Assembly: GCF_031127875.1 (NCBI RefSeq)
Contig: NZ_JARXIA010000002.1
Location: forward strand, 248,001 to 312,000
Length of the DNA: 64,000 nt
DNA from: Pelagicoccus sp. SDUM812005
GTDB lineage: Bacteria > Verrucomicrobiota > Verrucomicrobiia > Opitutales > Opitutaceae
Direction of reading: 5' to 3'
The position numbers were made by a program, and so were the translations under genes. The notes under the pieces were generated by a model. It saw only the letters and a program-made list of their open reading frames with translations. It made no database searches and was not told where the DNA came from. This document shows positions 31,395-56,082 of this stretch, piece after piece (the first letter of the stretch is position 1; every line of letters starts with the position of its first letter).

Positions 31395-33284
31395 CTAGAA
31401 GTCGCGGACTTCCCAGACTCCCAGCGTCGGATGCTCGACCTGAATGTATTCATCGTCGCAGGACAGAATCTTCCACGGCTTCGCAGCCTCGCTGTTCGCC
31501 CCGGCGTAACTTAGGCTAACCAAGCAAACCGACTCGCCCGCCCCCAGCTCCCCGAGCAGCAGTCCTGTCACGTGAAACGGAGCTTGAATGCTACGGCGCG
31601 GTCCGTCGCTTTCACTCGCTCGCTCGTCCAGCCCTACCGCTTCGTAACCCGCTACCATCTGCAACACCATCGCCTTCTCGTCCGTCCGCGCCTCCACCAT
31701 CGTTTCGCCACGTTCAACCAAGATCGATTGATCCTCGTCATAGCTAAGCGAATACGAACCAAAGCGCAGCGTCACGTCCTGGCAGGCCCGACACCGGTGT
31801 ACCGCGAGCTGCCAATCGCCCTTCCAAAAGAGGCTCGTTTCGACGCTCACCTGCAGCCCGTCGACCTTGCCGCCCAAACTGTACATGCAGGCCATGCGCT
31901 CGCTCTCCAGCGCCAAAGGCACCGTACCATGGCGACCGTAGACAAGCTCGCTTCCCTTCATTTGAGCGGTCAGCGATCCATCCAGTGGATACAGGCCATC
32001 ACCCTTCGGCAGTGTGAAGCCCCAGCCCGACTTGTAGCTCAGGCGACCCCATTTGTGGACGCCAAAGCGGGTATTCGAGGAACCGATCTGCGTACCGACG
32101 TTAACGATTTCCGAAGCGCCGTTCACCTTGCGGACAACCAAGTTCGGGCCTTGCAAGGCAACGCTGCGATCTCCTTCCGGCGCAGCTGCTTCCTCCGTCC
32201 AAAATGGATCGCTCGGCGGCAGCAGCAAGGGAGCGAAGCCCTTGGCCGCCCAATAGGGAGAGCCGCCGCAGGAGTAACTCTCCGCCAGCTCGGGAAATTC
32301 GTCCACCCAACCTATCGACAAACAGCCTTGGCTTTGTTCGATCGGCCGCGTCAGGAAAAACTCGAGATTGCGAGTACACAAACTCCGCGATTCCGCAGGA
32401 CTGAGCGGCGACGCGCCCACCAAGTAGGCCAAGGCAATCGGCGCCGTCGCATTGAAACGATAGGCGATGGATCTTCCGAACGCAGGGTGCTCCCCGTTGT
32501 CCGCGAAAAACAGGCTGTAGTTTTCCAGGAACAAACGGGTACGATCGGAAAAGCGCTGGCATCGCTCTACGTCCTTCTCGCTATAGAGCCGTATCCACCA
32601 CAAGGGATAAAAATGCCACGCATAGGCATTGTAGAAATCGTAGGCCTGGTTGCTGCCATCCATGTACCAACCATCGCCCGAATACATCCTCTCCAGCTCC
32701 TCGAAATACCAATCGATCGCGGCCCGATAGCGGGGATTCTCCCCACGCTCCGCCGCCAAAAACTCCAACAAGAAAACGCCAAAGAAGAGATGGTTGTTCC
32801 AGTGATGCCCATTACCCGCGTCCGACTCCAGCCAAAGCAAAACCTGCTCGCGTTCCGCCGCGTCCAGCCCATCCCACAGCCACTCGCGGCTCATCTCGAA
32901 GGCAATTCCCAGCAGCCCCATTTCCACCGAGTGCTGCCGGTAGTTCGTCGAGTATCCAAAAAACTGATCAGACTGCGAATCCGTCCCTAGGAGCAAGGCC
33001 TTGCGAAACCAAGCCTTCCCCTTCTCCAAGGCGTCCAGGTCGCTCTCCTCCCGGTAGTTCCTCAAGGAAACCTCCCAGTGGCAAAAGAGTAAAAAGGGAC
33101 GGGCAAAAGCTTCCAAGCGATCGGCGTCGAGGCAGTGGTCGCTGGCCTTGCCCTGGATCGGTATATGGGCTTCGCCTTCCTGCATCAATGCGAGCAATGG
33201 CTCCAGCAAGCCCTTCGCGGCGTTTTGCCAATAGCGGTAGCTAGCCGGCACGGAGTCGGCGGTGGGAATCGAATCTTCGTTCAT
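31395..33284 (-). CDS. DUF2264 protein 1 (predicted carbohydrate-active alpha/alpha-barrel)
   Basis: The predicted product has 629 residues; ATG 33284 sits 8 bases after the stop of the dehydrogenase gene. It lacks a signal peptide, so it is probably cytoplasmic. Conserved DUF2264 blocks are present: FFGYSTNYRQHSVEMGLLGIA in part, NGHHWNNHLFFGVF, GDGWYMDGSNQAYDFYNAYAWHFYP in part, and HPAFGRSIAYRFNATAP. The first 400 residues should form an (alpha/alpha) barrel, the rest a beta domain. The His/Asn/Asp-rich centre fits a glycosidase or lyase active site, but I infer no specific reaction. It is paralogous to the gene at 45560-47506 and, as there, follows a D-2-hydroxyacid dehydrogenase gene. 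Confidence 0.85.
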   Translation of the reverse strand: MNEDSIPTADSVPASYRYWQNAAKGLLEPLLALMQEGEAHIPIQGKASDHCLDADRLEAFARPFLLFCHWEVSLRNYREESDLDALEKGKAWFRKALLLGTDSQSDQFFGYSTNYRQHSVEMGLLGIAFEMSREWLWDGLDAAEREQVLLWLESDAGNGHHWNNHLFFGVFLLEFLAAERGENPRYRAAIDWYFEELERMYSGDGWYMDGSNQAYDFYNAYAWHFYPLWWIRLYSEKDVERCQRFSDRTRLFLENYSLFFADNGEHPAFGRSIAYRFNATAPIALAYLVGASPLSPAESRSLCTRNLEFFLTRPIEQSQGCLSIGWVDEFPELAESYSCGGSPYWAAKGFAPLLLPPSDPFWTEEAAAPEGDRSVALQGPNLVVRKVNGASEIVNVGTQIGSSNTRFGVHKWGRLSYKSGWGFTLPKGDGLYPLDGSLTAQMKGSELVYGRHGTVPLALESERMACMYSLGGKVDGLQVSVETSLFWKGDWQLAVHRCRACQDVTLRFGSYSLSYDEDQSILVERGETMVEARTDEKAMVLQMVAGYEAVGLDERASESDGPRRSIQAPFHVTGLLLGELGAGESVCLVSLSYAGANSEAAKPWKILSCDDEYIQVEHPTLGVWEVRDF

Positions 33285-33292
33285 GAAAAGGT

Positions 33293-34309
33293 TTAGGTCG
33301 AGCGGTCGTAGACCTCGCAAGTGATGGGAGCGATAAGGGGCTTGCCTTCCCGAAACCGCTGCAGGTTCTCGATGGCCCGATCCGCCGAATCGATGCGGCG
33401 ATCGGTGGTCGGCCCGCTGAGGTGCGGCAGCAAGGTCACGTTGCGGCAGCCGCGCAAGGGGTGGTCCACCGGTAGCGGTTCGATCGCAAATACGTCCAGG
33501 CCGACCTGCAAATCCGTGCTCTTGACCACCCGAACCAGAGCGTTTTCGTCCACCAATGCGCCTCGGGCCACGTTCACGAAGACCCCGCCAGCCGGAATGC
33601 TGCGCAGCAACGCTTCGCCGATGATCTTGTGCCGCGCCGGCGTCAACGCTTCCACTTCGATGATGACGTCGTGGTTCGCGAAAAGGGCTTCCAGGCTATC
33701 GGCCTTTTCGACTCCATATTCCTGATACACCTCGTCCGGCATTCCTTCCGTATAGGCGGAGATGCGGGAAGTGAACGGCCTCAATAGCGGCACCAATTCC
33801 TTGGCAATTGCCCCAAAGCCATGCAGCCCCACGCGGCGGTCGAACAAAGACTGGGTCTCGGTCGCCGGAGTTTTCCAGGCTCCCTTGTCATGCATTTGCT
33901 CGGCCCAATAGGTAAGCCGCCGCATGCAACTGAGCGTAAGCAAAAGAGCGCATTCGGATATGGTCCGACTGATCGAGTTCCCCCAGTTCGTTACCAGCAG
34001 CCCTGCTGCGATTTGCTCGCGAGAAACGAGGTGGCGCACCGAGCCCGCCAGGTAGCAGACATACTTTAAGGCTGGAGCCAACTCCGACAGGGCATTCGCC
34101 GGCAGCGGCCTCATAGCCCAGCCGCCTACGACGATTTCCGGATTTGCCTCCCGCAACACCGACTCCCATTCCTGCGGCGAGCAATCCTCGGCCGACACCA
34201 CGCGACATGGCTCCAGCAGTTGCTCCATCTTTGCCAGACGTCCCTCCCTCAGGAAGGTTTCGCTCTCCCTTTGAGTAACGACAATGAGATTGGTTGATTT
34301 CAGATTCAT
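33293..34309 (-). CDS. D-2-hydroxyacid dehydrogenase 1
   Basis: This is a 338-residue NAD(P)-dependent oxidoreductase of the phosphoglycerate/glyoxylate-reductase superfamily. The nucleotide loop reads GLHGFGAIAKELV, with Ala where the third Gly is usual. Catalytic residues are visible: Arg in VNVARGALVDEN, Glu in VFAIEPLP and His in LLPHLSGPT. The substrate-binding domain is N- and C-terminal as in the family. Within operon A it lies between the SSS transporter and DUF2264 genes, so it probably reduces or oxidises an acid derived from the imported sugar. About 60% identical by eye to the copy in operon B. Confidence 0.88.
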   Translation of the reverse strand: MNLKSTNLIVVTQRESETFLREGRLAKMEQLLEPCRVVSAEDCSPQEWESVLREANPEIVVGGWAMRPLPANALSELAPALKYVCYLAGSVRHLVSREQIAAGLLVTNWGNSISRTISECALLLTLSCMRRLTYWAEQMHDKGAWKTPATETQSLFDRRVGLHGFGAIAKELVPLLRPFTSRISAYTEGMPDEVYQEYGVEKADSLEALFANHDVIIEVEALTPARHKIIGEALLRSIPAGGVFVNVARGALVDENALVRVVKSTDLQVGLDVFAIEPLPVDHPLRGCRNVTLLPHLSGPTTDRRIDSADRAIENLQRFREGKPLIAPITCEVYDRST

Positions 34310-34330: not shown

Positions 34331-36088
34331 CTACGGCTTCACGGGGCGCTTCCCCGTACGAGCCAAGGCGTATCCAATTACCAACAACACTCCTCCGCAA
34401 AAGAGGAAGGCTATTCTGCCGCTGAGCGGATTCGGGATGATCGCGAGCAAGGCCACGAACCCGCCGTAAATCATGGAGAGAATACCCAAAGCCTTTCCCT
34501 GAGAGGCGTCCTTCTCGCCCGATCCCGTTTCGCTCGCTTCCACGGGAGTCTTGAGGTTCTCGAAAAAGGTATCGACCTCCGCCTTCCGCTCTTTCGACGG
34601 TTCCGTATAGAAGAAACTGGAGCCGAGATAGATCAGCGAACCGAAGGAGAGGTTGATCACGACGCCTAGGATTAGCTTCAGGTCGCCCGCCTCGCGCCCG
34701 GAAAACTCCGTGCCCAAACCGAGCAGCTCGTGGACGAACTCCGGCGTCATCCACGTATTCACCATAAACGATACACAGAGCCCGAGCACGATGGAAACCC
34801 AGCTGGCCCAATCCGGCACTCGCTTCACCACCAAGCCCCAGATCAGAGGCACCTGCATCGGGATGGCCACCAAGGCTCCAAACTGCAGCATCAAGTCGAA
34901 CAAGCCGATGTCCTTGAGTTGGCTAAACTGGATACCTGCCAATATAATGCAGCCCCCCATCACCAAGGTCGTGATCTTGCCCACGAAGAGCAGCTCCTTC
35001 TCGTCGGCATTGGGCCGAATGATCGGCAAGTAGAAGTTGCGTACGAAAATGCCGGCATTCCGGTTCAAGCCGCTATCCATCGAGGACATGGTTGCGGCAA
35101 ATATGCCCGACATCAACAAGCCCAGCATGCCGGCAGGCAAGGTCAGGATGCAAATGGCGACGTAGCTGGCTTCCTCGGGGTTGTTCAACTGAGGAAACAT
35201 CGATCCAAGATCTGGATACAAGATAGCTGAGGCCATCGGCGGAACAAACCAGACCACCGGTCCGATCACGAACAGCGCCGACGCGAGCAAGGCCCCCTTT
35301 CGCGCCTCCTTCGTATCGCGAGCGCAGAGATAGCGCGAGGCATCCATCAGGTTGTTGGTGGAGGCGAATTGCTTGACGATGATCACCACCACCCAGATCC
35401 AGATGAGCGCCGAGTAATTCGTATCGCCGCCAAACAAGCGGTCCGCTGGGAACTCGTTCACGAATGCCTCGACCCCACCGACTTCCTTCAAGGCGAAAAA
35501 GGCGCAAACCACGCTGATCGGCATCAGCACCAGAACTTGCATAAAGTCCGACGCGACCACGGCCCAACTTCCCCCCGTTACCGAAAGGAAAAGCACCACC
35601 AAGCCAGTCACCAAAACCGTTGTCTCGATATCGAAGCCAAACACCGCTGCAAAGAAAACGCCCAGCCCGTTCAGCCAAATCCCCGCGTACAAGGTTCCGA
35701 TGGGAATCTGCAGCCAAGTGAACATTTGCTCCGCTGTCTTTCCAAAACGGATACGCATCGCCTCAACTGGAGTCACCACCCGCGACTGCCGACACTTCGC
35801 CGCGAAGTACCAGTAGTTGGCGAGGAATCCGATCGCGTTGCCGAAAAAGATGACTAGGATCAGCACCCCGTCCTGATAGGCCTTGCTCGCCGCTCCCGTA
35901 AAGGTCCAAGCGCTGAACTGCACCATGAAGGCGCTGCTGCCAGCCATCCACCACGACATCTGACCTCCCCCGCGAAAGTAGTCGCTCGTATTGCCAATGA
36001 ACTTCCTAAACAGAAGCCCGATGGCTAGCATGAACAGGAAATAGAAGCCGACTACCCCGTAGTCGAATTGGGTAAGGGATATATCCAT
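34331..36088 (-). CDS. Sodium:solute symporter (SSS family) 1
   Basis: This 585-residue inner-membrane transporter has about 13 hydrophobic helices. ATG 36088 is used; a TTG two codons earlier is the only extension. The family core is clear: SAFMVQFSAWTFTGAASKAY in helix 1-2, WLQIPIGTLYAGIWLNGLG, TGGSWAVVASDFMQ and MSGIFAATMSSMDSGLNRNAGI in part. SSS proteins import sugars, acids or amino acids with Na+. It is almost a duplicate of the gene at 49617-51374, with identical long stretches. Only 6 bases separate it from the upstream lipoprotein gene, so it is in the same operon. Confidence 0.93.
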   Translation of the reverse strand: MDISLTQFDYGVVGFYFLFMLAIGLLFRKFIGNTSDYFRGGGQMSWWMAGSSAFMVQFSAWTFTGAASKAYQDGVLILVIFFGNAIGFLANYWYFAAKCRQSRVVTPVEAMRIRFGKTAEQMFTWLQIPIGTLYAGIWLNGLGVFFAAVFGFDIETTVLVTGLVVLFLSVTGGSWAVVASDFMQVLVLMPISVVCAFFALKEVGGVEAFVNEFPADRLFGGDTNYSALIWIWVVVIIVKQFASTNNLMDASRYLCARDTKEARKGALLASALFVIGPVVWFVPPMASAILYPDLGSMFPQLNNPEEASYVAICILTLPAGMLGLLMSGIFAATMSSMDSGLNRNAGIFVRNFYLPIIRPNADEKELLFVGKITTLVMGGCIILAGIQFSQLKDIGLFDLMLQFGALVAIPMQVPLIWGLVVKRVPDWASWVSIVLGLCVSFMVNTWMTPEFVHELLGLGTEFSGREAGDLKLILGVVINLSFGSLIYLGSSFFYTEPSKERKAEVDTFFENLKTPVEASETGSGEKDASQGKALGILSMIYGGFVALLAIIPNPLSGRIAFLFCGGVLLVIGYALARTGKRPVKP

Positions 36089-36094
36089 AATCAA

Positions 36095-37678
36095 TTAGTT
36101 TTCAGAGGAAGCGGACTGCCAAAGCTCCAGCTCCTTTTCCAAGTGAGCCGGCACACGACCCAATCGCAAAGAGAGCTGAGCTTCGAACAAAGACTCCGGC
36201 TGCACCGGCTGGCCAAGACTTTCCAGGGTGCCCAAGTTGGCTTCGTTGAAACGGGTTTCCTTCCCATGAAACCCTACGATGTTGGCATCGAGGAACAGGT
36301 CGCGCTTGTTGTACTCCTGTCTCCAAAAATCGAATTCAGTCTCCTCGCCTCCCGTGCGTTCGAAGTTCCATAGGGTCAATCCGCGCAGGTGGTTCGGCAT
36401 GCCTACCAAAGGTCCGCCGCTGCGCCCATACCTCCAACCGCCGCGGCAGGAATCCAGCAAGGTCGCGTACGGCCCCGTGGAATGGGCATCGAAGGAGTTC
36501 TTAGGCGTATGCTCGAAACGCCAGAAGACGGTAGAGGCGCTCATATAGCCTACTCCAGGCCCGTGAAAATGGCCCGCCGTGTCCGCGACCAAGCCGAAGA
36601 GTACGCCGTAGCCGCCGCGAGCGTGCACGGCGTGGTGGCCCAGCGTTCCTCCGAGCCGCAACCTGAGCACGCTAAAGGCCGAGCAATCGTCCATGCGAAT
36701 ACCGTAGTTCCAGTCGTTCATCACGACATCGCGTATCCAACCGTTCCTGACACTGTGCAGGCGAATCCCGCTCCAACCGCCATCGTCCAAGGCGCTGCGG
36801 TGGTGCACGAAGTCCCCTTTCCAGCCGCCCACGAAACGCAGCTGCTCGATCCCCACTTCCTCAATCGCCGGATAGTCCTGCACCGACCAACCGAACTGCG
36901 GATCGACCGTCACTTGCAAAGGAGCCCGCAGGCGCAGGGTATTGCCGTTTACGGATACAATTTGATGCCGCTCGGAAACGCCTATCCCGTCGGAGACCAG
37001 GCGCTTCCACTCGGGCCGGATTGGGCGGTCGCCAAAGAAGGCGGGAACCGCTTTCGGATCCCGCAAGCGCAGCGTAATCCAGTCGCCCGCAGCAAAGGGA
37101 GACGGATCTTGCACCGTCAGCTCGAAGGAACCGCGCTCGGACTTGCCGACCACTTTCGACAAAAATCGCTCTTGGGTATTCGTCGGCTCGACATGCAACA
37201 TGAACGGCGTCGAATACATGCGGTCCGGAAACTCGGGCTCGAGGTGGCGTTCGAACACCAGGTGGGTCCCCTCTTCTCCGGAACCCGCCCCGCGCATGAC
37301 CACATTGCCCTGGCTCAAGCGGAGCGGAGCTTCCTCCCCGTCCAGTGTATTCAGCAGATACCTACCTCTTTGGAAAAGGACCACCCCGCCCTTTTTCGAC
37401 GCTGCGTCCAAGGCAGCTTGTACCGCATCCCGGTCCGATACGCCATCGTCCGCCTTCGCCCCGAATTCTTCCACCTTGAACACCCGAGCAGGCCCCGCCG
37501 GAATCGGCGAATCCATGAAGTCGTAGCCCGCATAGGAATAGTCGGGCAAGGTCGCGGAGCCTCCCCGCTCCGAAGCTTCGACAAACTCCCGCCAAAGCGC
37601 CGACTCTCCCCGGCCGTCCGAACAAGCCGGCATGGATAGGAGCGAAGCGAGAATTACCAGTGGAGAAAGGGACTTCAT
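36095..37678 (-). CDS. DUF4955/pectate-lyase-like beta-helix lipoprotein
   Basis: This 527-residue protein has a lipoprotein-type signal (MKSLSPLVILASLLSMPAC). The mature protein begins with a Pectate_lyase_3-type strand VEEFGAKADDGVSDRDAVQAALDAA in part and contains many short beta-coils (MRGAGSGEEGTHLVFER in part), the look of a right-handed parallel beta-helix. The end, LRGLTLWNFERTGGEE, resembles DUF4955. It is likely to bind or cut a uronate-containing glycan at the outer membrane or in the periplasm. It leads the SSS-dehydrogenase-DUF2264 genes; a terminator and 170 bases separate it from TonB receptor 1. Confidence 0.8.
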   Translation of the reverse strand: MKSLSPLVILASLLSMPACSDGRGESALWREFVEASERGGSATLPDYSYAGYDFMDSPIPAGPARVFKVEEFGAKADDGVSDRDAVQAALDAASKKGGVVLFQRGRYLLNTLDGEEAPLRLSQGNVVMRGAGSGEEGTHLVFERHLEPEFPDRMYSTPFMLHVEPTNTQERFLSKVVGKSERGSFELTVQDPSPFAAGDWITLRLRDPKAVPAFFGDRPIRPEWKRLVSDGIGVSERHQIVSVNGNTLRLRAPLQVTVDPQFGWSVQDYPAIEEVGIEQLRFVGGWKGDFVHHRSALDDGGWSGIRLHSVRNGWIRDVVMNDWNYGIRMDDCSAFSVLRLRLGGTLGHHAVHARGGYGVLFGLVADTAGHFHGPGVGYMSASTVFWRFEHTPKNSFDAHSTGPYATLLDSCRGGWRYGRSGGPLVGMPNHLRGLTLWNFERTGGEETEFDFWRQEYNKRDLFLDANIVGFHGKETRFNEANLGTLESLGQPVQPESLFEAQLSLRLGRVPAHLEKELELWQSASSEN

Positions 37679-37848: not shown

Positions 37849-40266
37849 CTACATCTTGACGCGGTAGCGGAAGATGAAGCGCTGCGGGTCGCCGCGCTTC
37901 GCCGAGGCCCGCGTGTACTCCTCGTCGAAGATGTTCTTAGCGGTAAGCTGCAGCGTGTGCTTGCGCTGCTCGCCCCAGTTGTAGCCGACCCCGCCTTCGA
38001 AAAGGGTGTAGCCATCCTGGATGATCGCATGGCGCCCGCTGGAATTCGTGTAGCGGGACTCCCCCGTATCGCGAATGCCGAAGGTATAGAACAAGCCTTT
38101 TGCCTTCCCTTCCCGCACGCTGTACTTCATCACGACGTTGGCGCTGTAGTCAGGAATTTCCGCGACCGGCAAGCCTTCCAGATTCGGATTATCGGTGATG
38201 GCGATTTCCGAATCCACGATTCCGATACCGCCCGTCACGCTGAGCGAGCGGGATACCTTGTAGTTGAAATCGAATTCGTAGCCGGTCGCCTGCTCCAAGC
38301 CGTTCTGGGCCTTGTAGGTGAAGGTCTCGCCCGGGTTTGCAGGGTCCGGAGCGCTCACGTTGATCACCACGTCCTCGCGCTTGATGTCGAAGTAGGCCAA
38401 GGTGAAGGAAAGTTTGTCGCCAAATCCGTCGCCCTTGAACCCGATCTCCATGCCATCGCCCTTTTCGTTCTCGAAGATCTGCGCTTCGGCCAAAGGCTCA
38501 CCCGTGACCGGATCCACCGTGTTGAAATCGCGGCTCGGCAAGAAAGACGTGCTGGTATTTCCATACACCATCAAACCTTCGGCCAGCTTGTAGTTCACGC
38601 CGAACTGGTAGGTTTGCTCCGAAACGGATTCGCTAGTCGTACTGGGCGTGTTCTGGGCCGAGGAGCTCAAGCTGAACGGAGCATTGTACAGGTCCGTGGT
38701 CACCTCGTCGTAGCGAAGGCCCATGTTGATGTTCAAGTCGCCGTCGAGAGCCTTCATCTGGTTCGCGATGAACACGCCTTCCACGTCAACCGTGCGATCC
38801 GAATTCGTATCGACTACGCCGATACCGACCGGATCCGTGTTGTCGCCTACGATTCCGAAGGTGTCGGTTTCTCGGATGAGGTCGCGGGACTGCTGGTCGA
38901 TCCAGCTGTAGTCGGGATTGGATACGTCGAAGCGACGGTCCTGCACGGCGTTGAAGAAGGAGTTGCGACGCAGGTCCTTGTTCGTGATATCGATTCCGAA
39001 GCGCTCTTCCAACATCGCTTGCTGCTCCGCCGTAGTATTGCGGTTCAAGCGGGAACGAACGCGGATGTCACGCTGCTCGTTCTTGTCGAAGGTAACGAGC
39101 AGGCGATTTTGGATACGGTCCGTGTTGAACTCCTTGAGGAAGTCGACCTGGAAGGAATCTCCCGATTCCCAAATCTCGTAGTTGACCGGCTCGACATAGC
39201 GCACGACGCCTTCTTCGAAAACGACTTCCGCGGTGATTTCATCCGCCGTACGATCGCCGAAGTCCACCGCGACCTCGCCGGGGTAGCCGGTGAACTGGTC
39301 AAAGTAGCGGTCGTAGTTGTTGTAGGCCGCACGCATGGAAAAGGTCTCGCTGAACTTGTGGGAGAAGCGCAGATCCGTGGTATCGATATCGCGATCGTTG
39401 ATCTCCTCGGAGCCGAGGAAGCTGTAGTCGTAAAGCTCCGTAGCGAGGCGAAGGTACTCTCCCCCGTCGCTGTTGCGAATCGGCAGCAGCGAACGCCCGC
39501 GAGCCTGCGAGCGCTCCAGGTACTCCTTTTCCAAAGTGATCTGGGTGTTCTCGGATACGTTGTACTCCAGCACTCCCGATACCGCGAACTGGTCGCGACC
39601 GGTGAAGCCCCAGTCGTCGCGCGTCAGCCAAGCGCCGTCCAAGCGGTAGAGCAGCTTTTCGTCCTTCGTGAGCGGCCCGGTCGTCGCCACCGCAAGACGC
39701 GTGTAGTCGTCGGTGCCGAGCTCTACGGAATACTCCTGCTGCGGGGTCGCGGAAGGAGACTTGGTCACGATGTTAATGATGCCGCCCGGATTGATCTTGC
39801 CGTAGCTTCCGGCCGCCGGCCCCTTGATCACCTCCGCGCGGGAAACCGTGACGCGATCGATCAAACCAAGGCGGGTAAAGCCGTTGCGGAGCTGCGTCTG
39901 CTGCTTGAATCCTCGCAGCTGGTACCATCCTTCCACCTCGTCGCCCGCGAACGAACTCACGTAGGCGAACTGGTCGTCCAAGGAGTCCGCCGCGAAGTCC
40001 TCCAAAAATTCGTTCGTCACTACGTTGACCGCATAGGGCAGCTCCGCGATGCGGGTGCGGATACGCGAGCCGGTGATGGACTCCGCCGCCGAGTAGCCGC
40101 CCTCGTCGGTCGCCGTGACCGAGAACGGGCTCAGGGTGAAGACTTCTTCCTCTCCGTCCTGCCCAAAGGCAGGCGTCGCCAAAGAGGCAGCGAACAAAGA
40201 ACCGGCCACAGCCGCTCCTAGCTTGGACCCGCGACGGGTCAATTTCTCAAGGGGACTCAGTTTCAT
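37849..40266 (-). CDS. TonB-dependent outer-membrane receptor 1 (siderophore-receptor-like)
   Basis: The predicted product has 805 residues; ATG 40266 starts a signal peptide (hydrophobic core about 18-34, cleavage at AFG/QD). A TonB-box-like FTLSPFSVTATDEG follows, then the plug domain (ELPYAVNVVTNEFLEDF, GSYGKINPGGIINIVTK in part) and a 22-strand barrel ending in an aromatic residue (FRYRVKM, last strand FIFRYR). There is no N-terminal carboxypeptidase-like domain. In Opitutae such receptors often import glycan fragments rather than iron; context here supports a carbohydrate ligand. A terminator follows it and a divergent LacI gene precedes it. Confidence 0.92.
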   Translation of the reverse strand: MKLSPLEKLTRRGSKLGAAVAGSLFAASLATPAFGQDGEEEVFTLSPFSVTATDEGGYSAAESITGSRIRTRIAELPYAVNVVTNEFLEDFAADSLDDQFAYVSSFAGDEVEGWYQLRGFKQQTQLRNGFTRLGLIDRVTVSRAEVIKGPAAGSYGKINPGGIINIVTKSPSATPQQEYSVELGTDDYTRLAVATTGPLTKDEKLLYRLDGAWLTRDDWGFTGRDQFAVSGVLEYNVSENTQITLEKEYLERSQARGRSLLPIRNSDGGEYLRLATELYDYSFLGSEEINDRDIDTTDLRFSHKFSETFSMRAAYNNYDRYFDQFTGYPGEVAVDFGDRTADEITAEVVFEEGVVRYVEPVNYEIWESGDSFQVDFLKEFNTDRIQNRLLVTFDKNEQRDIRVRSRLNRNTTAEQQAMLEERFGIDITNKDLRRNSFFNAVQDRRFDVSNPDYSWIDQQSRDLIRETDTFGIVGDNTDPVGIGVVDTNSDRTVDVEGVFIANQMKALDGDLNINMGLRYDEVTTDLYNAPFSLSSSAQNTPSTTSESVSEQTYQFGVNYKLAEGLMVYGNTSTSFLPSRDFNTVDPVTGEPLAEAQIFENEKGDGMEIGFKGDGFGDKLSFTLAYFDIKREDVVINVSAPDPANPGETFTYKAQNGLEQATGYEFDFNYKVSRSLSVTGGIGIVDSEIAITDNPNLEGLPVAEIPDYSANVVMKYSVREGKAKGLFYTFGIRDTGESRYTNSSGRHAIIQDGYTLFEGGVGYNWGEQRKHTLQLTAKNIFDEEYTRASAKRGDPQRFIFRYRVKM

Positions 40267-40606
40267 GATGAGTTTTGTTTTCTTGGGGGGTTCTGGTAGG
40301 ATCGCCAAACAGGCTCAGGCCTGTTGCCGACGATTGAGAAGCGCCAGACAGCGCTCCCCTAGTAGGACAAGACGCCGCCGCGAAACAGCGCGGCGACCCT
40401 CCGAAACACGCCCAAGAAAAGCCGCCTCGTCAATTTAAAATTAATAATTATTAAGCCTATCATTCATATTATCAACTAAAACCCTGACCCTACCGAATCC
40501 GTTTAATAACATTAATCACTAGCTATCCGTTACTTATAGCGTTCTCGAAGTTTTATTAACTAAACCTTGCTCCTAATAAACTTATAGATATTAGTTTGTT
40601 TCGATC
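40267..40606. other. AT-rich divergent control region between TonB receptor 1 and LacI 1
   Basis: The region 40430-40600 is strongly AT-rich compared with the flanking genes. It holds a 14-bp palindrome (40441-40454), a TTGACG-like -35 on the minus strand at 40428-40433, and an imperfect 20-bp palindrome at 40578-40597 (16 of 20 positions symmetric) 9 bases before the LacI start. No open frame is credible. Confidence 0.65.
40441..40454. promoter_or_regulatory. AT-rich 14-bp palindrome upstream of TonB receptor 1
   Basis: TTAATAATTATTAA is a perfect palindrome and is followed by GCC. It lies 7 bases upstream (minus-strand sense) of TTGACG at 40428-40433. A related palindrome is found in the same arrangement before TonB receptor 2. 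It could be a LacI-family operator or an UP element; the sequence alone cannot decide. Confidence 0.5.
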
Positions 40607-48533: not shown

Positions 48534-48543
48534 TGCAAATTCC

Positions 48544-49620
48544 TCAAATGACAGGACCGGCCAGCTCCAGAAACTCGAGCCCTCCCGTCGTCTTAAATGT
48601 TACCTCACCCGCTTCCGCCGCGATGAATACTCGGTCGTACTGCTTCACCTCGCAAAGCTGCCCGCCTACTTCGATCGTTCCCGATCCCTCAGTGACTACC
48701 AGGATGTAGAATCCCTCCTCGTACTTCGTAACCATTCTTTCGATACGGGTCGAGCGAGCCTCGAAGCAAGGAGTTCGATCCGCACCCACGAGAAGCCTTT
48801 GCACCGATCCGTCCGCAAACTCGTGCAGGACACGCGGCTCGCAAACGAAGTCCGCAGCCTGCTTCGGTTCCAGGTCGAAGACGTTCAGGCAAAAGTCGAG
48901 ACCGCGCCCCATGAAGCGCGAGTCCTCGGGCAGCACGTATCCGCCCCGTTCGAATTCGAATCGCACTACCAAGTCACTGGCTTCCATGAGCTCGACCATC
49001 AAGATCCCTTCGCCCAAAGCATGAGGACAGCCGCCGGGTATCAGGAAAACGTCCCCGACCTTAACGGGTATTTTGTCGAAGCACGACTCCAGGGCCGCGA
49101 TGTCCTGCGTCTCTATCCAGCGCTTCAGCTGCTCGCGGCTGGGAGGACGCTGGAACCCTGCATAGATGTAAGGATCCTTGATTTCCTCGCGAATGGCCAA
49201 GATCACGTACGCCTCCGTCTTCCCTTTGTTGACGCCCAAGTGCTTGGCGGAAAAGTCCGCCGTGGGATGAACCTGGAAGTGCAGGCGGATCGCCGAATCC
49301 AAGTACTTCGCCAAGATGCGCATATCCGTTCCGAAACGCTCCACGTGCTCCTTGCCCAGGTAAAACTCCGGCTCCTTCGCTACCAGGTCGCTAAACGGAA
49401 CCAGCTTGCCTTCCTCGTTATGCACCTTCGCCAAACCTTCGTCCGGATCGCTCTCCACTGGATTGTTGGCCCGCGTGAGCGAAGCGATCCAATCCTCCGG
49501 ATAATGGCTATCGGCCGGAGCCGGCTTGCCTTCGATTCGGTCCAAGGTGCACCCGCCCAAATAGCTGCGCCACACTCGGTTTGCCTGCAAAGGCAAGAGA
49601 CTCTTTCGCGTTAGCATCAT
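48544..49620 (-). CDS. Class I mannose-6-phosphate isomerase-like protein
   Basis: This 358-residue cupin-fold protein has zinc ligands that can be traced: Gln/His in LHFQVHPTADFS, Glu in KTEAYVIL and His in PGGCPHALGEG. The C-terminal beta domain ends ITLELAGPVI-like, as in ManA/YvyI-type isomerases. It would interconvert an aldose and ketose, perhaps a mannose-6-phosphate analogue or a sugar acid. It is present only in operon B. ATG 49620 overlaps the SSS 2 stop codon (ATGA), so the two are translationally coupled. Confidence 0.85.
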   Translation of the reverse strand: MMLTRKSLLPLQANRVWRSYLGGCTLDRIEGKPAPADSHYPEDWIASLTRANNPVESDPDEGLAKVHNEEGKLVPFSDLVAKEPEFYLGKEHVERFGTDMRILAKYLDSAIRLHFQVHPTADFSAKHLGVNKGKTEAYVILAIREEIKDPYIYAGFQRPPSREQLKRWIETQDIAALESCFDKIPVKVGDVFLIPGGCPHALGEGILMVELMEASDLVVRFEFERGGYVLPEDSRFMGRGLDFCLNVFDLEPKQAADFVCEPRVLHEFADGSVQRLLVGADRTPCFEARSTRIERMVTKYEEGFYILVVTEGSGTIEVGGQLCEVKQYDRVFIAAEAGEVTFKTTGGLEFLELAGPVI

Positions 49621-51374
49621 GCTTTCGCCTTTCCTTTTCCGGTCTGCATCAATGCGTATCCAATTCCCAACAACACCAGTCCACAGAACATGAAGGCAAA
49701 GCGTCCCAGCATCGGGTTAGGGATCGCGGCCAGAAGGAAAACGAAACCGCCGTAGATCATGGAGAGGATACCCAAAGCCTTGCCCTGGGAAGAGTCGCGC
49801 TCTTCAGACCCCGTCTCGCTCGATTCCACCGGAGTGTGCAAATCCTCGAAGAAGCGGTCGACCTCCTCCTTGCGCTCCTCGCTCTGGTCCTTGTAGAAGA
49901 TGGACGACCCCAAGTACACGGCCGAACCGACGGTAAGGTTGATCACCACGCCGAGGATCAAAGACAGATCGCTCGCTTCGCGCCCCGAGAACGAGGTTTC
50001 CAAACCGAGGAAGCTCTGCACCCAATCCGGAGTCATCCAGGTCTTGATCACGAAGGAAACGCAAAGCCCCACTACGATCGTCACCCAGCTCGCCCAGTCC
50101 GGCACTCGCTTCACGAGGATACCCCAGATCAAGGGGACCTGCATCGGAATGGCGACCAGCGCCCCGAACTGCAGCATCAAGTCGAACAAGCCGATATCCT
50201 TAAGCTGGCTGAACTGGATACCGGCCATGATGATACACAGACCAAAGACCACGGTGGCGATCTTGCCTACCAAAAGCAGTTCCTTCTCGTCCGCCTTCGG
50301 GCGAATCAACGGCAAGTAGAAATTGCGCACGAAGATACCGGCATTGCGATTCAAGCCGCTATCCATCGACGACATCGTCGCCGCAAAGATCCCCGACATG
50401 AGCAGGCCGAGCATGCCAGCCGGCAAGGTCATGATACAGATCGCCACATAGCTGGCTTCCTGGGGGTTCGTAAGCTGCGGAAACATTTCCCCAAGATCTG
50501 GATACAAAATCGCCGAAGCCATGGGAGGCACGAACCAAACGACCGGCCCGATCACGAAAAGAGCCGAGGCCAGCAAGGCCCCCTTGCGGGCCTCCTTGGT
50601 ATCGCGAGCGCAGAGATAGCGGGACGCGTCCATCAAGTTGTTCGTCGAAGCGAACTGCTTGAGCAAGATCACCACCACCCAAATCCAAATCAAGGTAGAG
50701 TAATTCGTGTCGCCGCCAAAAAAGCGGTCCGCCGGGAAGCGCTCCACCAACTCGCTCACCCCGCCCACTTCCCTCAGGGCGAAAAACGCAGCGACCACGC
50801 TGATCGGCATCAAAACCAAGACCTGCATGAAGTCCGACGCGACGACCGCCCAGCTCCCCCCTGTCACAGAGAGAATGAGCACTACCAAGCCCGTAACTAG
50901 AACGGTCGTCTTGATGTCGAACCCAAAGACGGCGCTGAAAAACACGCCGAGTCCATTCAACCAAATTCCTGCGTAAAGCGTCCCGATGGGAAGCTGCAGC
51001 CAAGTGAAAACCTGCTCCGCGGTCTTGCCGAAGCGAATCCGCATCGCCTCCACCGCCGTGACGACTCGGGTCTGCCGGCACTTCGCCGCGAAATACCAGT
51101 AGTTCGCCAGAAAGCCGACCGCATTGCCGAAAAAGATGACCAGCACCAAAAGCCCGTCGCTGTAGGCCTTGCTCGCCGCACCGGTGAAGGTCCAGGCGCT
51201 GAACTGCACCATGAAAGCGCTGCTGCCCGCCATCCACCAGGACATCTGCCCTCCGCCACGGAAAAAGTCGCTCGTGTTTCCGATAAACTTACGAAAGAGC
51301 AAGCCTATCGCCAACATGAACAAGAAATAAAAGGCGACGACGCCGTAATCGAAATTCGTGAGGGTAATATCCAT
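49617..51374 (-). CDS. Sodium:solute symporter (SSS family) 2
   Basis: This is a 585-residue inner-membrane transporter, near-duplicate of the gene at 34331-36088: the first 100 residues and the MSGIFAATMSSMDSGLNRNAG region are almost identical, differences being scattered conservative changes. It is the first gene of operon B and lies 85 bases downstream of a candidate sigma70 promoter. It probably imports an oligosaccharide or uronate. Having two near-identical transporters argues for recent duplication. Confidence 0.93.
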   Translation of the reverse strand: MDITLTNFDYGVVAFYFLFMLAIGLLFRKFIGNTSDFFRGGGQMSWWMAGSSAFMVQFSAWTFTGAASKAYSDGLLVLVIFFGNAVGFLANYWYFAAKCRQTRVVTAVEAMRIRFGKTAEQVFTWLQLPIGTLYAGIWLNGLGVFFSAVFGFDIKTTVLVTGLVVLILSVTGGSWAVVASDFMQVLVLMPISVVAAFFALREVGGVSELVERFPADRFFGGDTNYSTLIWIWVVVILLKQFASTNNLMDASRYLCARDTKEARKGALLASALFVIGPVVWFVPPMASAILYPDLGEMFPQLTNPQEASYVAICIMTLPAGMLGLLMSGIFAATMSSMDSGLNRNAGIFVRNFYLPLIRPKADEKELLLVGKIATVVFGLCIIMAGIQFSQLKDIGLFDLMLQFGALVAIPMQVPLIWGILVKRVPDWASWVTIVVGLCVSFVIKTWMTPDWVQSFLGLETSFSGREASDLSLILGVVINLTVGSAVYLGSSIFYKDQSEERKEEVDRFFEDLHTPVESSETGSEERDSSQGKALGILSMIYGGFVFLLAAIPNPMLGRFAFMFCGLVLLGIGYALMQTGKGKAKA

Positions 51375-51459
51375 AAGGCTGATAAGTTAAGAGTTCTCGC
51401 GCCGCCCGAAGGGGGAACAGTCTAGCGCGAGAAACGGGGTTTCGCTTAAAACAAGTGAA

Positions 51460-51489
51460 CTTATAATTATAAGCCTTTATCAGAGTCAA
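51460..51489 (-). promoter_or_regulatory. Candidate sigma70 promoter of operon B with overlapping palindrome
   Basis: On the minus strand TTGACT (51484-51489) and TATAAG (51460-51465) are separated by 18 bases. The -10 region is contained in the perfect 14-bp palindrome CTTATAATTATAAG (51460-51473). A LacI repressor bound there would block the promoter, which is the classical repression geometry. The assignment is by eye. Confidence 0.55.
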
Positions 51490-51601: not shown

Positions 51602-52651
51602 ATGACCCAACCGAAGAAACGACGCATTTCCCAAGCCCAGATCGCCAAAGAGATCGGCTGCTCCCAAGCCCTCGTGTCCATGGCCCTCAACGGCCACACC
51701 AAGGGAATCTCCGAAAAGACCTACAACGCGATCCGCGAGCTAGCCGCCCAGCAGGGCTACGCCCCCAAGGGCATGAAAATCGAGGCCAACCTCAGCGAAC
51801 TGCAGCAGCGCACCATCGGCTACATCCTGCGTTCCCCCCTCAAGCTCGCCAACAAGAGCAACTTCTTCAGCCACATCCACCAAGGCCTCCACGAGCACCT
51901 GCTCGAACACAAGCTCAAGACCGTCTACCTCGGCTCCGAGGACGACATCAACCAGTCCGAAAGCAGTTTCGCGTCCCACTTCTCCGACTCCGTACGCGGC
52001 ATCGCCATCATGGGCGAAGTCGATCCCGGCTTCCTCGCCAAAGTGCTGGAGACCGGACGGCCGCTCGTCTACATTTCGGCCCGCGCCTCCGGCCAGTGCC
52101 ACTCCGTGCTTTCCAACGAGCACGAATCCGGCGAACTGCTCGTCAAGCACCTCTACGACCTCGGCCACCGGCAATTCGCCTGGCTCGGCGGCGGCCGCCC
52201 CCGTGGACGCCACGACGATCGACTCAACTCCGTCGAAGCCGCCCTTTCCAAACGGGGGCTCAGCCTAAGCGAGGCAGCCAAAGTAACGCTCGACGGAGCC
52301 GACCGCAACGAGGGCTACCTCGCCGCCAAGCAGATACTCGAGCAGACAGGAGAACGGCCCACCGCCTGGATCTGCCTCAACGCCCTCATGGCCCGAGGCG
52401 CCATCAACCTCCTCCTGCAGCATCAGGTGGAAATCGGAAAATCCGTCAGCATCGCCGCCTTCGACATGACCCGAATTTGCGAAGAAGAGCACCCCACCCT
52501 CACCTCTGCCGGAGCCGACCCCGAAGCGATGGGACGCGAGGCGGGACGCATCTTGACGCAATCCATCGAAGCGGATTCCGCCGGCCTGACCGACGTAACT
52601 CTGCCCGCCCACCTCAAGGTGCGCGAATCGACCGGCCCCGCCCCCCAGTAG
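51602..52651 (+). CDS. LacI-family transcriptional regulator 2
   Basis: This 349-residue regulator is paralogous to LacI 1 (start KKRRISQAQIAKEIGCSQALVS in part; sensor domain ILRSPLKLANKSNFFSHIHQG in part). The sensor domain ends with FDMTRICEEEHPTLTSAGADPEAMG, the same signature as LacI 1. It is divergent from SSS 2, so it most likely controls operon B and itself. The recognition helix differs slightly from LacI 1, so the operators may differ. Confidence 0.92.
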   Translation: MTQPKKRRISQAQIAKEIGCSQALVSMALNGHTKGISEKTYNAIRELAAQQGYAPKGMKIEANLSELQQRTIGYILRSPLKLANKSNFFSHIHQGLHEHLLEHKLKTVYLGSEDDINQSESSFASHFSDSVRGIAIMGEVDPGFLAKVLETGRPLVYISARASGQCHSVLSNEHESGELLVKHLYDLGHRQFAWLGGGRPRGRHDDRLNSVEAALSKRGLSLSEAAKVTLDGADRNEGYLAAKQILEQTGERPTAWICLNALMARGAINLLLQHQVEIGKSVSIAAFDMTRICEEEHPTLTSAGADPEAMGREAGRILTQSIEADSAGLTDVTLPAHLKVRESTGPAPQ

Positions 52652-52938: not shown

Positions 52939-55900
52939 CTAGAACTTGCCCTTTACGCCCAAGGCCCACTGTACGCCGAACTCTTCGATACGCTCAGGAA
53001 CCACGATGCTACGGTCAGCATTAGCAACGAACTGCTTCTGCTCCTTGTTGAAGATATTGCGGCCGCTCACGAAGATCTTAGTCTTCTTGTTGATGCTGTA
53101 GTCAATATTCAGGTCGACCTGCTCGAGGCGATCGCGGTAGAGCTGGAAGTTCTCCACGAAATCACCATTCGAATCGTAGGTTCTCATGTCCGAGAAACCT
53201 CCGACGAGCTGCTCGCCCTTGCTGTTGAACTTCAACTGGATCTTCAGCGGCTTGCGGTCGTAGGTGAGGCCGAGGTTGTAGCTCTCTTCCACCATGTCTT
53301 CCAACTCGTGGATCACGGAGCCGTTAACATTGCGCTTCACGTCGATGAAGGTCGCATTGGCCAATAGGCTGAAGCTGCTCAGCCAATCAGGCATTCCAGC
53401 TCCCTTGAGAGAACGGAAGTAGCTGAACTCCATACCATCGATGGTCGCTTCGCCACCGTTAACCTGAGTCTCGAATCGATATTCAGGAGTGTCAGCCAAG
53501 AAGCTTGGCAGATCGAAGGCAGCGAACTCCGCATCGCTCAGCTGGTTCAAGATACCATTGTAGCTTACGATGTAGTTGGAGATTTCCTTGCGGAACAAAC
53601 CAGCCGAGATGGAACCGCCCGATTGTGGGTAGTACTCGAAGGTTAGATCGTAGTTGTCGGCATCTTGAGGACGCAAGCCGGTGTTATTGAATTCCACGAC
53701 ACCATCGGACTCCATTTCATCTTCCGCAGGACGATCGATTTCGAACTGTGGAATGATAGAGCTAAAATCCTGACGTCCAATTGTGTTCGCATAAGCGAGA
53801 CGCATCAAGAAATGCTCGTTGAAGTCATAAACAGCGTGGAGGCTTGGGTAGAAGTCATCGTAGCTAGTGCTAGATACCTTACGCTGGCTCCACTGAGCCA
53901 TGAGGCGTTCCGTTTCATCGGCGATCCCTTCCCCGAGGCTTTCATCGAAGTAACCACCTTCGCCGGTCATATCGGTCTTCTCGTAGCGTACGCCACCAGT
54001 AAGCTTCAGCTTGGAATCCATGAAGTTCAACTGACCCATCATGTACGCGGCAGAGATCTTCTCTTCAGCCGTGTAGCGCTGGTTCGCGAGCTCAACGATG
54101 TTTTCAGTCGTGCGGCTACCCCATTCGAAGTTGTCCTGGTTCGCTGCGTAGTAATCGTAGATATCCTCGTAGTCAGGCCATTGGATAATGCCAGGGCCGA
54201 TATAGAGAGCGTCTTGCCCAGAATAGATCTGCTCCGCAGGCAATCCAGTATCGTCGTATGTCGAATTTACGTGACGCAGACGAGTACGGTTGCGGTTGGC
54301 GTGACGCTCTTGCTTCTGCTGGCGAACACCCATCTTGAAGTAACCTGTGTTTTCGCCAACACGGATGTTGCGCTTCATGTCGAAGTTGAACCCGGTGAAA
54401 TCGTCCTGAGCGTCTTGCTCGCGGGTCTGCACCTCGTCCAAGTCAAAAGTCGATAGGCTCGCGACACCATAGGTCGGGTCGACGTTACCGCTAGAATCAT
54501 AGAGCGTCAAAGTAGGCGTATATTGAACTACGCCATTATAAGGATCGCCAACGTTACTGAACTCAAAGCGTCCGGTGTAATCGTCGTCACCGATGACCGC
54601 CATGATCATACCTTGGGAAAAGTCGTCGTAGAAGTTAGTCGCGGTAGAGGAGAATGCTCCCGCTTCGTAAGTCCACACGTCGCCGTAGTGCTTGATCTTG
54701 AAATCGCCGTGCCATGTGTCGCCGTACTTGTTTCTCCAGGAACCGCCGAGGTCGATGTCGCCGCGGCCTACGTCGCCGAGCATATAAGTCGGAGAGATAA
54801 CGGAGTCCGGATCATTGCCATCGCTATCAGTTGTCGAGGTGATATTAGTATCCCAAGTGATATTGCGATTACGGAATTCCGAAGAGTAATCGTTGAACTG
54901 CAAGCTGCCGGAAATGACAGTGTTCTCGCCCCACTTATAGTCGGACTTGATGTGATAGGATTCGCGGTGAGTGTACTTAGGACCATCCTGAATGTAGTAG
55001 CGGCGCAGCATTGGGGTACCGATGCCGTCGCCTGAATTATCCGTTACCCAACGGGTACGAACGCGATGCTGCTCGTTGAACTGATTGGAGTTCGTGTAGT
55101 TGAATATAACGCCCAACGTTCCGTCCTTGAAGACGTCCGCATAAGTCAGGTCAAAACCTGGCTTGATCTTATGGCTGTTGAAGTCGCCGTGACCTGGAGT
55201 GGATCCCAGGTCCAAATCTTCGCTGTTGCCGCTGAAGTATACACGATACTTGATCTCGCGACCGTCACGCTCGAAGGCGCTCTTGCTCACGAGGTTTACC
55301 GCGCCACCCAGCGAATCCGCCGCGATGTCCGGAGTGGGAACCTTAGCGACTTCCACGCGTTCGATATTATTGATGGAAAGCTGCTCGAGCTCGAAATCGC
55401 GAGCCTTGGCGCCGGACGCGGCGCTCGCCATGCGATTGCCGTCCACCGTCACCGGCGTGAAATTGTCCGCCATGCCACGAACCGTGATCGTACGAGCATC
55501 CGCCGCGACATAGTTGATGTTCACGCCAGGCAACATCTTAACGAACTCGCCCACGTTACCTTCCGTCACGTCGCCAAAGGCGCCGGAGTCGACCACGTTG
55601 ACGTTGTAGTCGGACACGCGCTGCTGGTTGATCGCTCGGCTGTAGGCGTCGACTTCGTTCTTCACCTCGAATGCCGCCAACTCGAAGACTTCTTCGTCGT
55701 CGTCGAAAGTATTGCGGCTTTTCAGCTCTATCGTCGCCGGCGTTACGCTCTGCCCTGCCTGCACGTCTACCATAATAGTGCGAGCGAAGTAACCCAAGTG
55801 CTCGATGTCCAAGGACACCGTGCCAGGGGCAACGCCTGTCAGGCGGTAGGTTCCGTCCGGGCCAGTCCGAGTGGAGTTGCCCGTATCCGAAACGCTAACG

Positions 55901-56082
55901 GTTACGTTTTCTACATAGAGTCCAGATACGGCATCCTTTACACGCCCAGTGATACGGCCGGTGTCCTGGCCGAAGGCGCTAATACCCGAAGCCAATACGG
56001 CGACAAGTAGAGTTAGAAAGCGAGGCAACGCACATGCGTCGGCAGAAACTCGCGCAATTCTCGTACGAGAAAATAGTTTCAT
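52939..56082 (-). CDS. TonB-dependent outer-membrane receptor 2 with carboxypeptidase-like N-domain
   Basis: The predicted product has 1047 residues. An N-terminal signal peptide (LPRFLTLLVAVLASGISAFG) is followed by a CarboxypepD_reg-like beta-sandwich (ITGRVKDAVSGLYVENVTVSVSDTG in part), the plug domain (VNVVDSGAFGDVTEGNVGEFVKMLPGVNI in part, AADSLGGAVNLVSKSAFE in part) and a 22-strand barrel ending WALGVKGKF. This layout is common in receptors for carbohydrate uptake in Opitutae, Bacteroidetes and Xanthomonas-type systems. It is of a different type from receptor 1, so the locus may take up two related ligands. It has its own terminator. Confidence 0.92.
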   Translation of the reverse strand: MKLFSRTRIARVSADACALPRFLTLLVAVLASGISAFGQDTGRITGRVKDAVSGLYVENVTVSVSDTGNSTRTGPDGTYRLTGVAPGTVSLDIEHLGYFARTIMVDVQAGQSVTPATIELKSRNTFDDDEEVFELAAFEVKNEVDAYSRAINQQRVSDYNVNVVDSGAFGDVTEGNVGEFVKMLPGVNINYVAADARTITVRGMADNFTPVTVDGNRMASAASGAKARDFELEQLSINNIERVEVAKVPTPDIAADSLGGAVNLVSKSAFERDGREIKYRVYFSGNSEDLDLGSTPGHGDFNSHKIKPGFDLTYADVFKDGTLGVIFNYTNSNQFNEQHRVRTRWVTDNSGDGIGTPMLRRYYIQDGPKYTHRESYHIKSDYKWGENTVISGSLQFNDYSSEFRNRNITWDTNITSTTDSDGNDPDSVISPTYMLGDVGRGDIDLGGSWRNKYGDTWHGDFKIKHYGDVWTYEAGAFSSTATNFYDDFSQGMIMAVIGDDDYTGRFEFSNVGDPYNGVVQYTPTLTLYDSSGNVDPTYGVASLSTFDLDEVQTREQDAQDDFTGFNFDMKRNIRVGENTGYFKMGVRQQKQERHANRNRTRLRHVNSTYDDTGLPAEQIYSGQDALYIGPGIIQWPDYEDIYDYYAANQDNFEWGSRTTENIVELANQRYTAEEKISAAYMMGQLNFMDSKLKLTGGVRYEKTDMTGEGGYFDESLGEGIADETERLMAQWSQRKVSSTSYDDFYPSLHAVYDFNEHFLMRLAYANTIGRQDFSSIIPQFEIDRPAEDEMESDGVVEFNNTGLRPQDADNYDLTFEYYPQSGGSISAGLFRKEISNYIVSYNGILNQLSDAEFAAFDLPSFLADTPEYRFETQVNGGEATIDGMEFSYFRSLKGAGMPDWLSSFSLLANATFIDVKRNVNGSVIHELEDMVEESYNLGLTYDRKPLKIQLKFNSKGEQLVGGFSDMRTYDSNGDFVENFQLYRDRLEQVDLNIDYSINKKTKIFVSGRNIFNKEQKQFVANADRSIVVPERIEEFGVQWALGVKGKF

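Follow-up and report, generated by a model that had tools for sequence, protein, structure and literature searches.

Two operons of the marine bacterium Pelagicoccus sp. SDUM812005 (genome of 6.65 Mb in 118 contigs) raise the question of whether they encode a new catabolic system or a variant of a known one. They lie in a stretch of 64,000 nucleotides, referred to here as the window (contig NZ_JARXIA010000002.1, positions 248,001 to 312,000), and each contains the genes of a sodium:solute symporter (SSS), a D-isomer 2-hydroxyacid dehydrogenase (2HADH) and a DUF2264 protein. An earlier note, made from the sequence alone, had regarded this triad as the strongest candidate for a new system in the window. 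The analysis described below led to a different judgment: the locus is most likely a variant of the alginate type with a partial duplicate, in which a well-marked candidate branch of the glycoside hydrolase (GH) family GH154 and an orphan 2HADH are found, and not a new system. The uronate dehydratases of GH154 are already known; what is new is a clade of this family marked by a histidine, without GH88/GH105 by BLAST in 39 loci, and a set of operons linked by a palindrome.

Operon A, read on the minus strand from 40308 down to 31395, encodes a TonB receptor, a beta-helix/DUF4955 lipoprotein, SSS, 2HADH and DUF2264. Operon B, also on the minus strand (51374 down to 41674), encodes SSS, a mannose-6-phosphate-isomerase-like protein (PMI-like), 2HADH, DUF2264, a short-chain dehydrogenase/reductase (SDR), a lyase of polysaccharide lyase (PL) type PL39 and a TIM barrel. 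Each operon has a divergent LacI gene. Profile scans covered 20 window proteins against Pfam and 10 against NCBIfam (Table 1). The gene content, the shared order of the triad, the LacI regulator of each operon and the beta-helix lipoprotein of operon A were as had been claimed; the PMI-like gene of operon B separates SSS from 2HADH, so the triad is not contiguous there. The identities between the two copies were 86% for SSS, 65% for 2HADH, 59% for DUF2264 and 57% for LacI. A TonB receptor goes with each operon, as proposed, that of operon B being a separate gene outside it (56082-52939). The two receptors are not duplicates of each other, since the similarity by BLAST was not significant (best E 0.42), and they were ruled out as part of the duplication.

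The closest named relatives in the locus scan were Pelagicoccus sp. SDUM812002, P. mobilis and Verrucomicrobiae bacterium DG1235, which fits a marine bacterium of the Opitutales type. SDUM812002 has both operons side by side on one contig (L005 and L020) and holds separate sisters of DUF2264_A and DUF2264_B in the tree; because each copy has its own sister there, the duplication predates the split from that strain. In DG1235 (L008), a homologue of the operon-A beta-helix gene lies between LacI and SSS and heads a B-type operon, which ties operons A and B to one task.

The DUF2264 proteins had been considered uncharacterized, a description that no longer applies. Both matched PF10022 (294.8 and 285.8 bits, curated cut-off 25) and share the fold of the solved family members, an alpha toroid, with 9o4u and 9nwf (beta-D-glucuronic acid dehydratase) and 8oi4 among their relatives in the PDB. 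This family is GH154, and both a crystal structure with bound substrate and 4,5-dehydratase activity have been published for it (PMC12269599). According to that report of 2025, GH154 contains uronate 4,5-dehydratases in gut bacteria: BcGDH dehydrates terminal glucuronate across C4-C5, BT_3677, which is said to carry a second domain near the active site, does likewise on methyl-glucuronide, and the whole family was proposed to be dehydratases (PMC12269599). Replacing any of ten active-site residues of BcGDH, Trp178 included, by Ala left no detectable activity there on a substrate that the authors call poor (PMC12269599). Nine of the ten (E74, R78, N176, N177, F181, Y229, R285, Y289 and Y354) were kept in both window proteins, with the BcGDH numbering mapped by hand along the alignment with the PDB relative, whereas the tenth, W178, is a histidine (His174) in both.

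The same exchange was found throughout the group. In a 70-row alignment of DUF2264 proteins, the W178 column held His in 40 of 40 window-type rows and Trp in 30 of 30 other DUF2264s of the phylum. The window-type rows came from a peptide-pattern scan plus the window (23) and from other genomes (17), with L010/L036 and L025/L052 being the same genomes; the Trp rows were the best-scoring DUF2264 loci, at most one per genome, from matches in 49 of 194 genomes. The peptide patterns of the scan (59 stretches, 21 loci) stop before the W178 position, so the histidine was not forced by the scan. In the tree, the His group (39 rows) was split off by a branch supported at 100/100, and the long-branched Trp row L121 joined the group weakly. 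Some variation was seen at other positions: F181 is Met in ten rows of the His group, the truncated L053 has Trp at Y354, and N176 is replaced by Cys or Ser in ten rows of the Trp group. Judged by these alignments, the window-type DUF2264s constitute one separate GH154 clade marked by a Trp-to-His switch. They also differ from BcGDH and BT_3677 in that no signal peptide was seen by eye in the window DUF2264s and in that their partners are usually 2HADH and alginate-type lyases. Literature searches, with subscription journals and preprints outside their scope, gave no match for the name DUF2264 and, among the matches listed, no link of GH154 with alginate; for a dehydratase of mannuronate or guluronate they gave the GH154 report and a paper on Bacillus subtilis.

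Furthermore, the triad recurs in other genomes. DUF2264 matches at E 1e-60 or better numbered 19 in 387 Verrucomicrobiota genomes, with this genome contributing three; of the 19, 16 directly adjoin a 2HADH of the window subfamily (adjacency read by hand from coordinates), one has it 15 kb off and two are without it. Of the 16 genomes that carry a window-type DUF2264, 15 also had the 2HADH subfamily, vs 32 of the 387 genomes overall, a co-occurrence far beyond chance. Among 37 fetched DUF2264 loci, many of which are cut by contig ends and which include duplicates (L010/L036, L025/L052) and an overlap (L005/L020), 2HADH lay within 300 bp of DUF2264 in 29. The other genes in these stretches, counted by BLAST at E 1e-15 with loose labels for PL6 and SDR, were PMI-like (24 loci), SSS (23), SDR (20), PL39 (15) and PL15 (11), one or other of these two lyases in 26, PL6-like (11) and PF05426-like (4). 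Family scans of single loci identified a PL15-type lyase (DUF4962 plus heparinase C) in L044, PL6-type lyases in L007 and L048, and PF05426 in L025 and L044. A subfamily 2HADH was missing beside DUF2264 in L021, L023, L024 and the C11 copy of this genome, and the Pontiellaceae locus L025 had the row DUF2264-PMI-SSS-SDR-PL39 with the 2HADH 15 kb away (G247). The triad, whose failure to recur in other genomes would have refuted the earlier note, did recur, and the view of it as real, conserved, duplicated and part of acidic-glycan catabolism was supported.

GH154 is said to co-localize with GH88/GH105 (PMC12269599). As local partners of the window-type DUF2264, these families were ruled out by blastp at 1e-6, which found none in 39 loci (two without DUF2264) or in the window, although distant members could escape such a search. 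The eight queries were the longest frames over seven of the eight GH88-family matches of this genome (one of the eight is weak), with one gene taken twice; the only hit was this gene itself, in L093.

All the additional genes listed for operon B were present, but its heparinase-type lyase proved to be a relative of the PL39 alginate lyases: it matched the Dp0100 structures 6jph, 6jp4 and 6jpn across the catalytic chain (query residues 39-645) with E from 1.1e-187 to 4.3e-189. The catalytic residues of PL39 are Asn186/His187/Tyr239/His405 (PMC12088678); candidate motifs in the operon B lyase are HNHLSK at 223, EGSFYY at 273 and NHEHYDH at 446. Because of this kinship alginate is the leading substrate, and together with the PL15, PL6 and PF05426 neighbors in the relatives it makes the locus point to alginate. 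An alginate-type lyase, a TonB receptor and an inner-membrane symporter occur together in the region. The beta-helix lipoprotein was distantly related both to the PL29-type BT3328 family (NF058554, 315 bits, under the cut-off of 1100) and to the N-termini of mannuronan C5-epimerases (8xfq, 2.8e-6).

A similar gene set is present in Verruconatronum alginivorum, also of the Opitutales, whose cluster pgaptmp_000046-60 holds an SSF symporter, PL39, PL15 and two PL29-type proteins and rises on alginate, with one replicate per treatment; the main text of that report mentions neither "GH154" nor "hydroxyacid" (PMC13274419). The canonical alginate pathway comprises the symporter ToaABC, an oligoalginate lyase, a reductase of 4-deoxy-L-erythro-5-hexoseulose uronate (DEH), KdgK and KdgA (PMC8286568, PMC12021255). 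The operon resembles it in SSS, lyase and SDR, and differs from it in the DUF2264, 2HADH and PMI-like genes and in the late steps, which lie outside the operon.

Additionally, a palindrome like AACTTATAATTATAAGTT was found at three sites in the window (vs none in 100 shuffles): one in the gap that separates SSS_B from LacI_B, one upstream of TonB receptor B and a weaker one ahead of LacI_A. Its 16-base core, with at most two mismatches, was found in five places of the whole genome (nine matches on the two strands; one for the reversed control): two in the window and one each on C11, C28 and C31. The C11 site overlaps the likely start codon of a third DUF2264, which lies near UxaC, SDR and SSS genes and near genes for a beta-helix protein and a sulfatase. 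On C28 (L092:4377-9492), an exact palindrome lies 37 bp upstream of an operon with a HepIII-type lyase, cytosolic-looking with no signal peptide seen by eye, and a GH2 with a mannosidase-type domain. The C31 site precedes a UxaE-like gene in a PfkB/UxaC cluster. In 12 loci scanned, sites with one to two mismatches were found in L005, L006 and L008, one such site in L011 and none in L007 and L022; the rest had three to four mismatches. The palindrome is shared by operon B, its receptor, the third DUF2264 and the lyase-GH2 operon, and LacI_A and LacI_B would be the proteins that bind it.

These sites bear on a second reading, in which the substrate would be a glucuronate polymer (glucuronan, glucuronomannan or an algal glycan like the glycosaminoglycans, GAG) and DUF2264 a plain glucuronate dehydratase. 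The GH2 and HepIII-type genes behind the exact palindrome would suit it, as would the third DUF2264 with the palindrome over its likely start codon near UxaC, a PMI-like gene that could serve mannose, and the resemblance of the beta-helix protein, below the cut-off, to the PL29 hyaluronan lyase BT3328. Both proven GH154 dehydratases use glucuronic acid (PMC12269599). Nevertheless, this reading was considered unlikely: the PDB relatives of the PL39-type lyase are alginate lyases, the neighbors in related loci include PL15, PL6 and PF05426 types, and the W to H switch separates the clade from the other DUF2264s examined.

As stated in the earlier note, no cut-off of the KdgF, KduI, KduD, KdgK or KdgA models was reached among the window proteins scanned, which had been taken as the sign of a new route. 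The genome has two matches to the aldolase of 2-keto-3-deoxy-6-phosphogluconate (KDPG; PF01081), one partial KduI-family match and the PfkB-kinase/UxaC cluster elsewhere, and the operon has its own SDR; the absence of those genes from the window is therefore no argument for a new route. The PDB relatives of the SDR at E below 1e-36 (25 chains) include 3afm (9.3e-41) and 4w7h (2e-39), both named "Carbonyl reductase", which we take to be the DEH reductases of Sphingomonas A1; higher scores went to other SDRs for which no DEH role is given, 4yqy and 3edm among them. The match to the KduD model was weak (157 bits vs a cut-off of 369).

The 2HADH carries RGxxVDE, EP and PH (by eye), the hallmark motifs of its family, and its PDB neighbors were generic. 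In the 2HADH tree the DUF2264-linked genes were mixed with others, with at least five changes forced by the starred branches, and further loci with the subfamily hold GH39, melibiase, BNR_4, DegT or SBP genes. Since the tree is mixed and the subfamily occurs in varied sugar loci, the 2HADH would be a general enzyme of the sugar-acid side; a reasonable, though weak, guess for its reaction is the reduction of hydroxypyruvate to D-glycerate. The literature searches on a 2-hydroxyacid dehydrogenase with DEH gave the enzyme only under the serine cycle.

An oxidative DEH route would give the 2HADH a defined place: the SDR would make 2-keto-3-deoxyglucarate, an aldolase would release pyruvate and tartronate semialdehyde, the TIM barrel would convert the latter into hydroxypyruvate, and 2HADH would deliver D-glycerate to glycerate kinase. 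The DEH reductase FlRed can also oxidize DEH, but its route is reported to continue by dehydration/decarboxylation and not by aldol cleavage (PMC8563752). One glycerate kinase was found in this genome, and six of the fetched loci that carry this 2HADH subfamily have a glycerate-kinase cluster (C15, one member identified by Pfam). All six also hold NamZ-type genes (C14), so this link may belong to another sugar. With the aldolase absent from the operon, an unspecific fold search for the TIM barrel, and neither SDR nor TIM barrel in operon A, this route appeared the least probable of the alternatives. The six loci are L056, L058, L059, L062, L063 and L065; most add fucose-isomerase-like, AP_endonuc_2 and Gfo/Idh/MocA genes (Pfam on L063 only), and they are possibly peptidoglycan-sugar loci with a NamZ-type exo-muramidase.

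The explanation favored, with about an even chance of being right, is that the region is a palindrome-controlled utilization system for alginate, or a closely similar polyuronate, with a partial second copy, in which DUF2264 dehydrates saturated uronates. It builds on the gene content, its conservation, the kinship of the lyase, the dehydratase fold and residues and the shared palindrome, from which we infer the substrate, the order of the steps, the roles of 2HADH, PMI-like protein and TIM barrel, and the binding of LacI to the palindrome. The TonB receptors would carry oligomers over the outer membrane, PL39 and, in operon A, the beta-helix lipoprotein would cleave them by beta-elimination, and SSS would import uronates to the cytoplasm. 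DUF2264 would then strip the C4 hydroxyl as water from saturated mannuronate or guluronate ends, or from monomers left by the lyase, with Tyr227 as the base, Tyr284 as the acid and Arg280 as the neutralizer by homology. Its product would be a 4,5-unsaturated uronate or DEH, the same as that of the lyase. The SDR, perhaps with the PMI-like isomerase, would convert DEH into 2-keto-3-deoxygluconate (KDG), to be finished by a kinase and a KDPG aldolase encoded elsewhere in the genome. The 2HADH would act on an alpha-keto acid of the route, and LacI-type repressors would control the gene set. The same chemistry with a sugar instead of water as the leaving group would make the His-subclade DUF2264 a cytosolic exo-oligoalginate lyase, for which we see a chance of about one in five.

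A more specific proposal, held tentatively and at somewhat less than even chance, is that the His subclade is an alginate-specific branch of GH154, acting as a cytosolic mannuronate/guluronate 4,5-dehydratase or a derived oligoalginate lyase and turning saturated units into DEH without GH88/GH105. The Trp-to-His switch would mirror the His that marks alginate vs GAG lyases, and the usual 2HADH partner would mark an unrecognized DEH side branch in marine Verrucomicrobiota. Among the carbon stores of algae alginate is a major one, and we know of no step for saturated uronate ends in the textbook alginate route. If true, marine carbon turnover would gain a step in the form of a dedicated dehydratase branch, one diagnostic residue (Trp or His) would split GH154 annotation into a glucuronate and an alginate type, and the orphan 2HADH family would gain a testable role. 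The label exo-beta-1,6-glucuronidase, under which an annotation table lists GH154 (PMC13260240), would mislead pathway reconstruction here.

Several points weigh against the alginate dehydratase explanation. The activity of BcGDH is not transferable to the window proteins, because the residue whose Ala mutant had no detectable activity, Trp178, is His here. Both proven enzymes act on glucuronate, and the family's reported co-localization with GH88/GH105 is not shared by the His clade. The GH2 and HepIII-type genes behind an exact palindrome are odd for, and disfavor, a pure alginate diet. PL39 lyases are reported to be endolytic, and the PL15 exo-alginate lyase has His311, Tyr365 and His531 as catalytic residues (PMC8286568). 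With endolytic lyases and no PL15/PL17 exo-lyase in operon B (no genome-wide search for PL15 or PL17 was made), few saturated monomers would be expected, and keeping two dehydratase copies for them seems costly. The genome offered few other alginate lyase candidates, namely a strong PF14592 match distant from the window and four weak PF05426 matches, one of them the HepIII-type gene of C28; PF08787 (PL7) gave no match genome-wide, but the model also matched no control. Finally, with no member of its subfamily beside the DUF2264 of L025 and with members in other sugar loci, the 2HADH may not be an alginate enzyme.

Table 1. Features of the two operons and their surroundings (window positions, except for the third DUF2264)
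Feature	Position	Strand	Remarks
DUF2264_A (GH154, His subclade)	31395..33284	-	PF10022 1.1e-87; 629 aa from likely ATG; open frame extends to TTG 33320
2HADH_A, D-isomer 2-hydroxyacid dehydrogenase	33293..34309	-	PF02826 1.5e-38
SSS_A, sodium:solute symporter	34331..36094	-	PF00474 8.7e-37
Beta-helix + DUF4955 lipoprotein	36095..37678	-	PF16315 1.8e-45; lipobox-like LSMPAC by eye
TonB-dependent receptor A	37849..40308	-	PF00593/PF07715
Operator-like palindrome, 10 bp before LacI_A	40579..40596	.	3 mismatches to AACTTATAATTATAAGTT
LacI_A regulator	40607..41677	+	PF13377 5.1e-22
Xylose-isomerase-like TIM barrel (sugar isomerase/epimerase type)	41674..42495	-	
PL39-type alginate lyase	42492..44816	-	N-terminus resembles a signal peptide by eye; likely ATG near 44783
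SDR, candidate DEH reductase	44773..45540	-	PF13561 5.9e-57
DUF2264_B (GH154, His subclade)	45560..47506	-	signal peptide not seen by eye
2HADH_B	47523..48533	-	PF02826 5.1e-38
Class I mannose-6-phosphate-isomerase-like cupin (PMI-like)	48544..49620	-	TIGR00218 6.6e-19, below cut-off; 1qwr 1e-10
SSS_B	49617..51374	-	PF00474 5.3e-37
Operator-like palindrome between SSS_B and LacI_B	51458..51475	.	2 mismatches to 18-mer
LacI_B regulator	51602..52651	+	PF13377 6.3e-25
TonB-dependent receptor B with carboxypeptidase-regulatory-like domain	52939..56082	-	PF00593, PF13620, PF07715
Operator-like palindrome upstream of TonB receptor B	56188..56205	.	
Third DUF2264, His type	G000:C11:67112-69121 (L004:9115-11121)		38% identical to DUF2264_B; signal-peptide-like start by eye

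Beside operon A, an open reading frame of 460 aa (30016-31398, plus strand) was rejected as a spurious frame, with no Pfam match and a low-complexity Arg/Pro-rich translation. The window also encodes a scramblase-family protein (29502-30098, minus strand; PF03803 2.8e-15), a family that is, to our knowledge, uncommon in bacteria.

Some observations were made in the fetched loci. In L025, a PdxB-type 2-hydroxyacid dehydrogenase (PF02826 + DUF3410; 7972-9120, minus strand) lies 0.9 kb upstream of DUF2264 on the other strand. In other Opitutales, a gene of the glucose/sorbosone dehydrogenase type (GSDH) lies upstream of the row of PMI, 2HADH and DUF2264 (L009:4092-6032, L010:3440-6031, L016:5909-7786). 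In the alphaproteobacterium Tropicimonas sediminicola (L023:10001-11896, NZ_FZOY01000002.1), genes for AraC and DUF3604 lie near a DUF2264 of the His type, which is sister to that of Puniceicoccaceae K14 and was likely acquired by horizontal transfer. L014 (NZGF01000057.1), labeled Crocinitomicaceae (Bacteroidota), holds an Opitutales-type locus that falls inside the Opitutales clade in both the DUF2264 and 2HADH trees, and its contig is likely mis-binned or the locus transferred. Several loci are flanked by pseudopilin-like N_methyl/DUF1559 genes (cluster C16; e.g., L048:18838-19710, Pfam on L048 only), which recall the pseudopilin of the V. alginivorum alginate cluster (PMC13274419).

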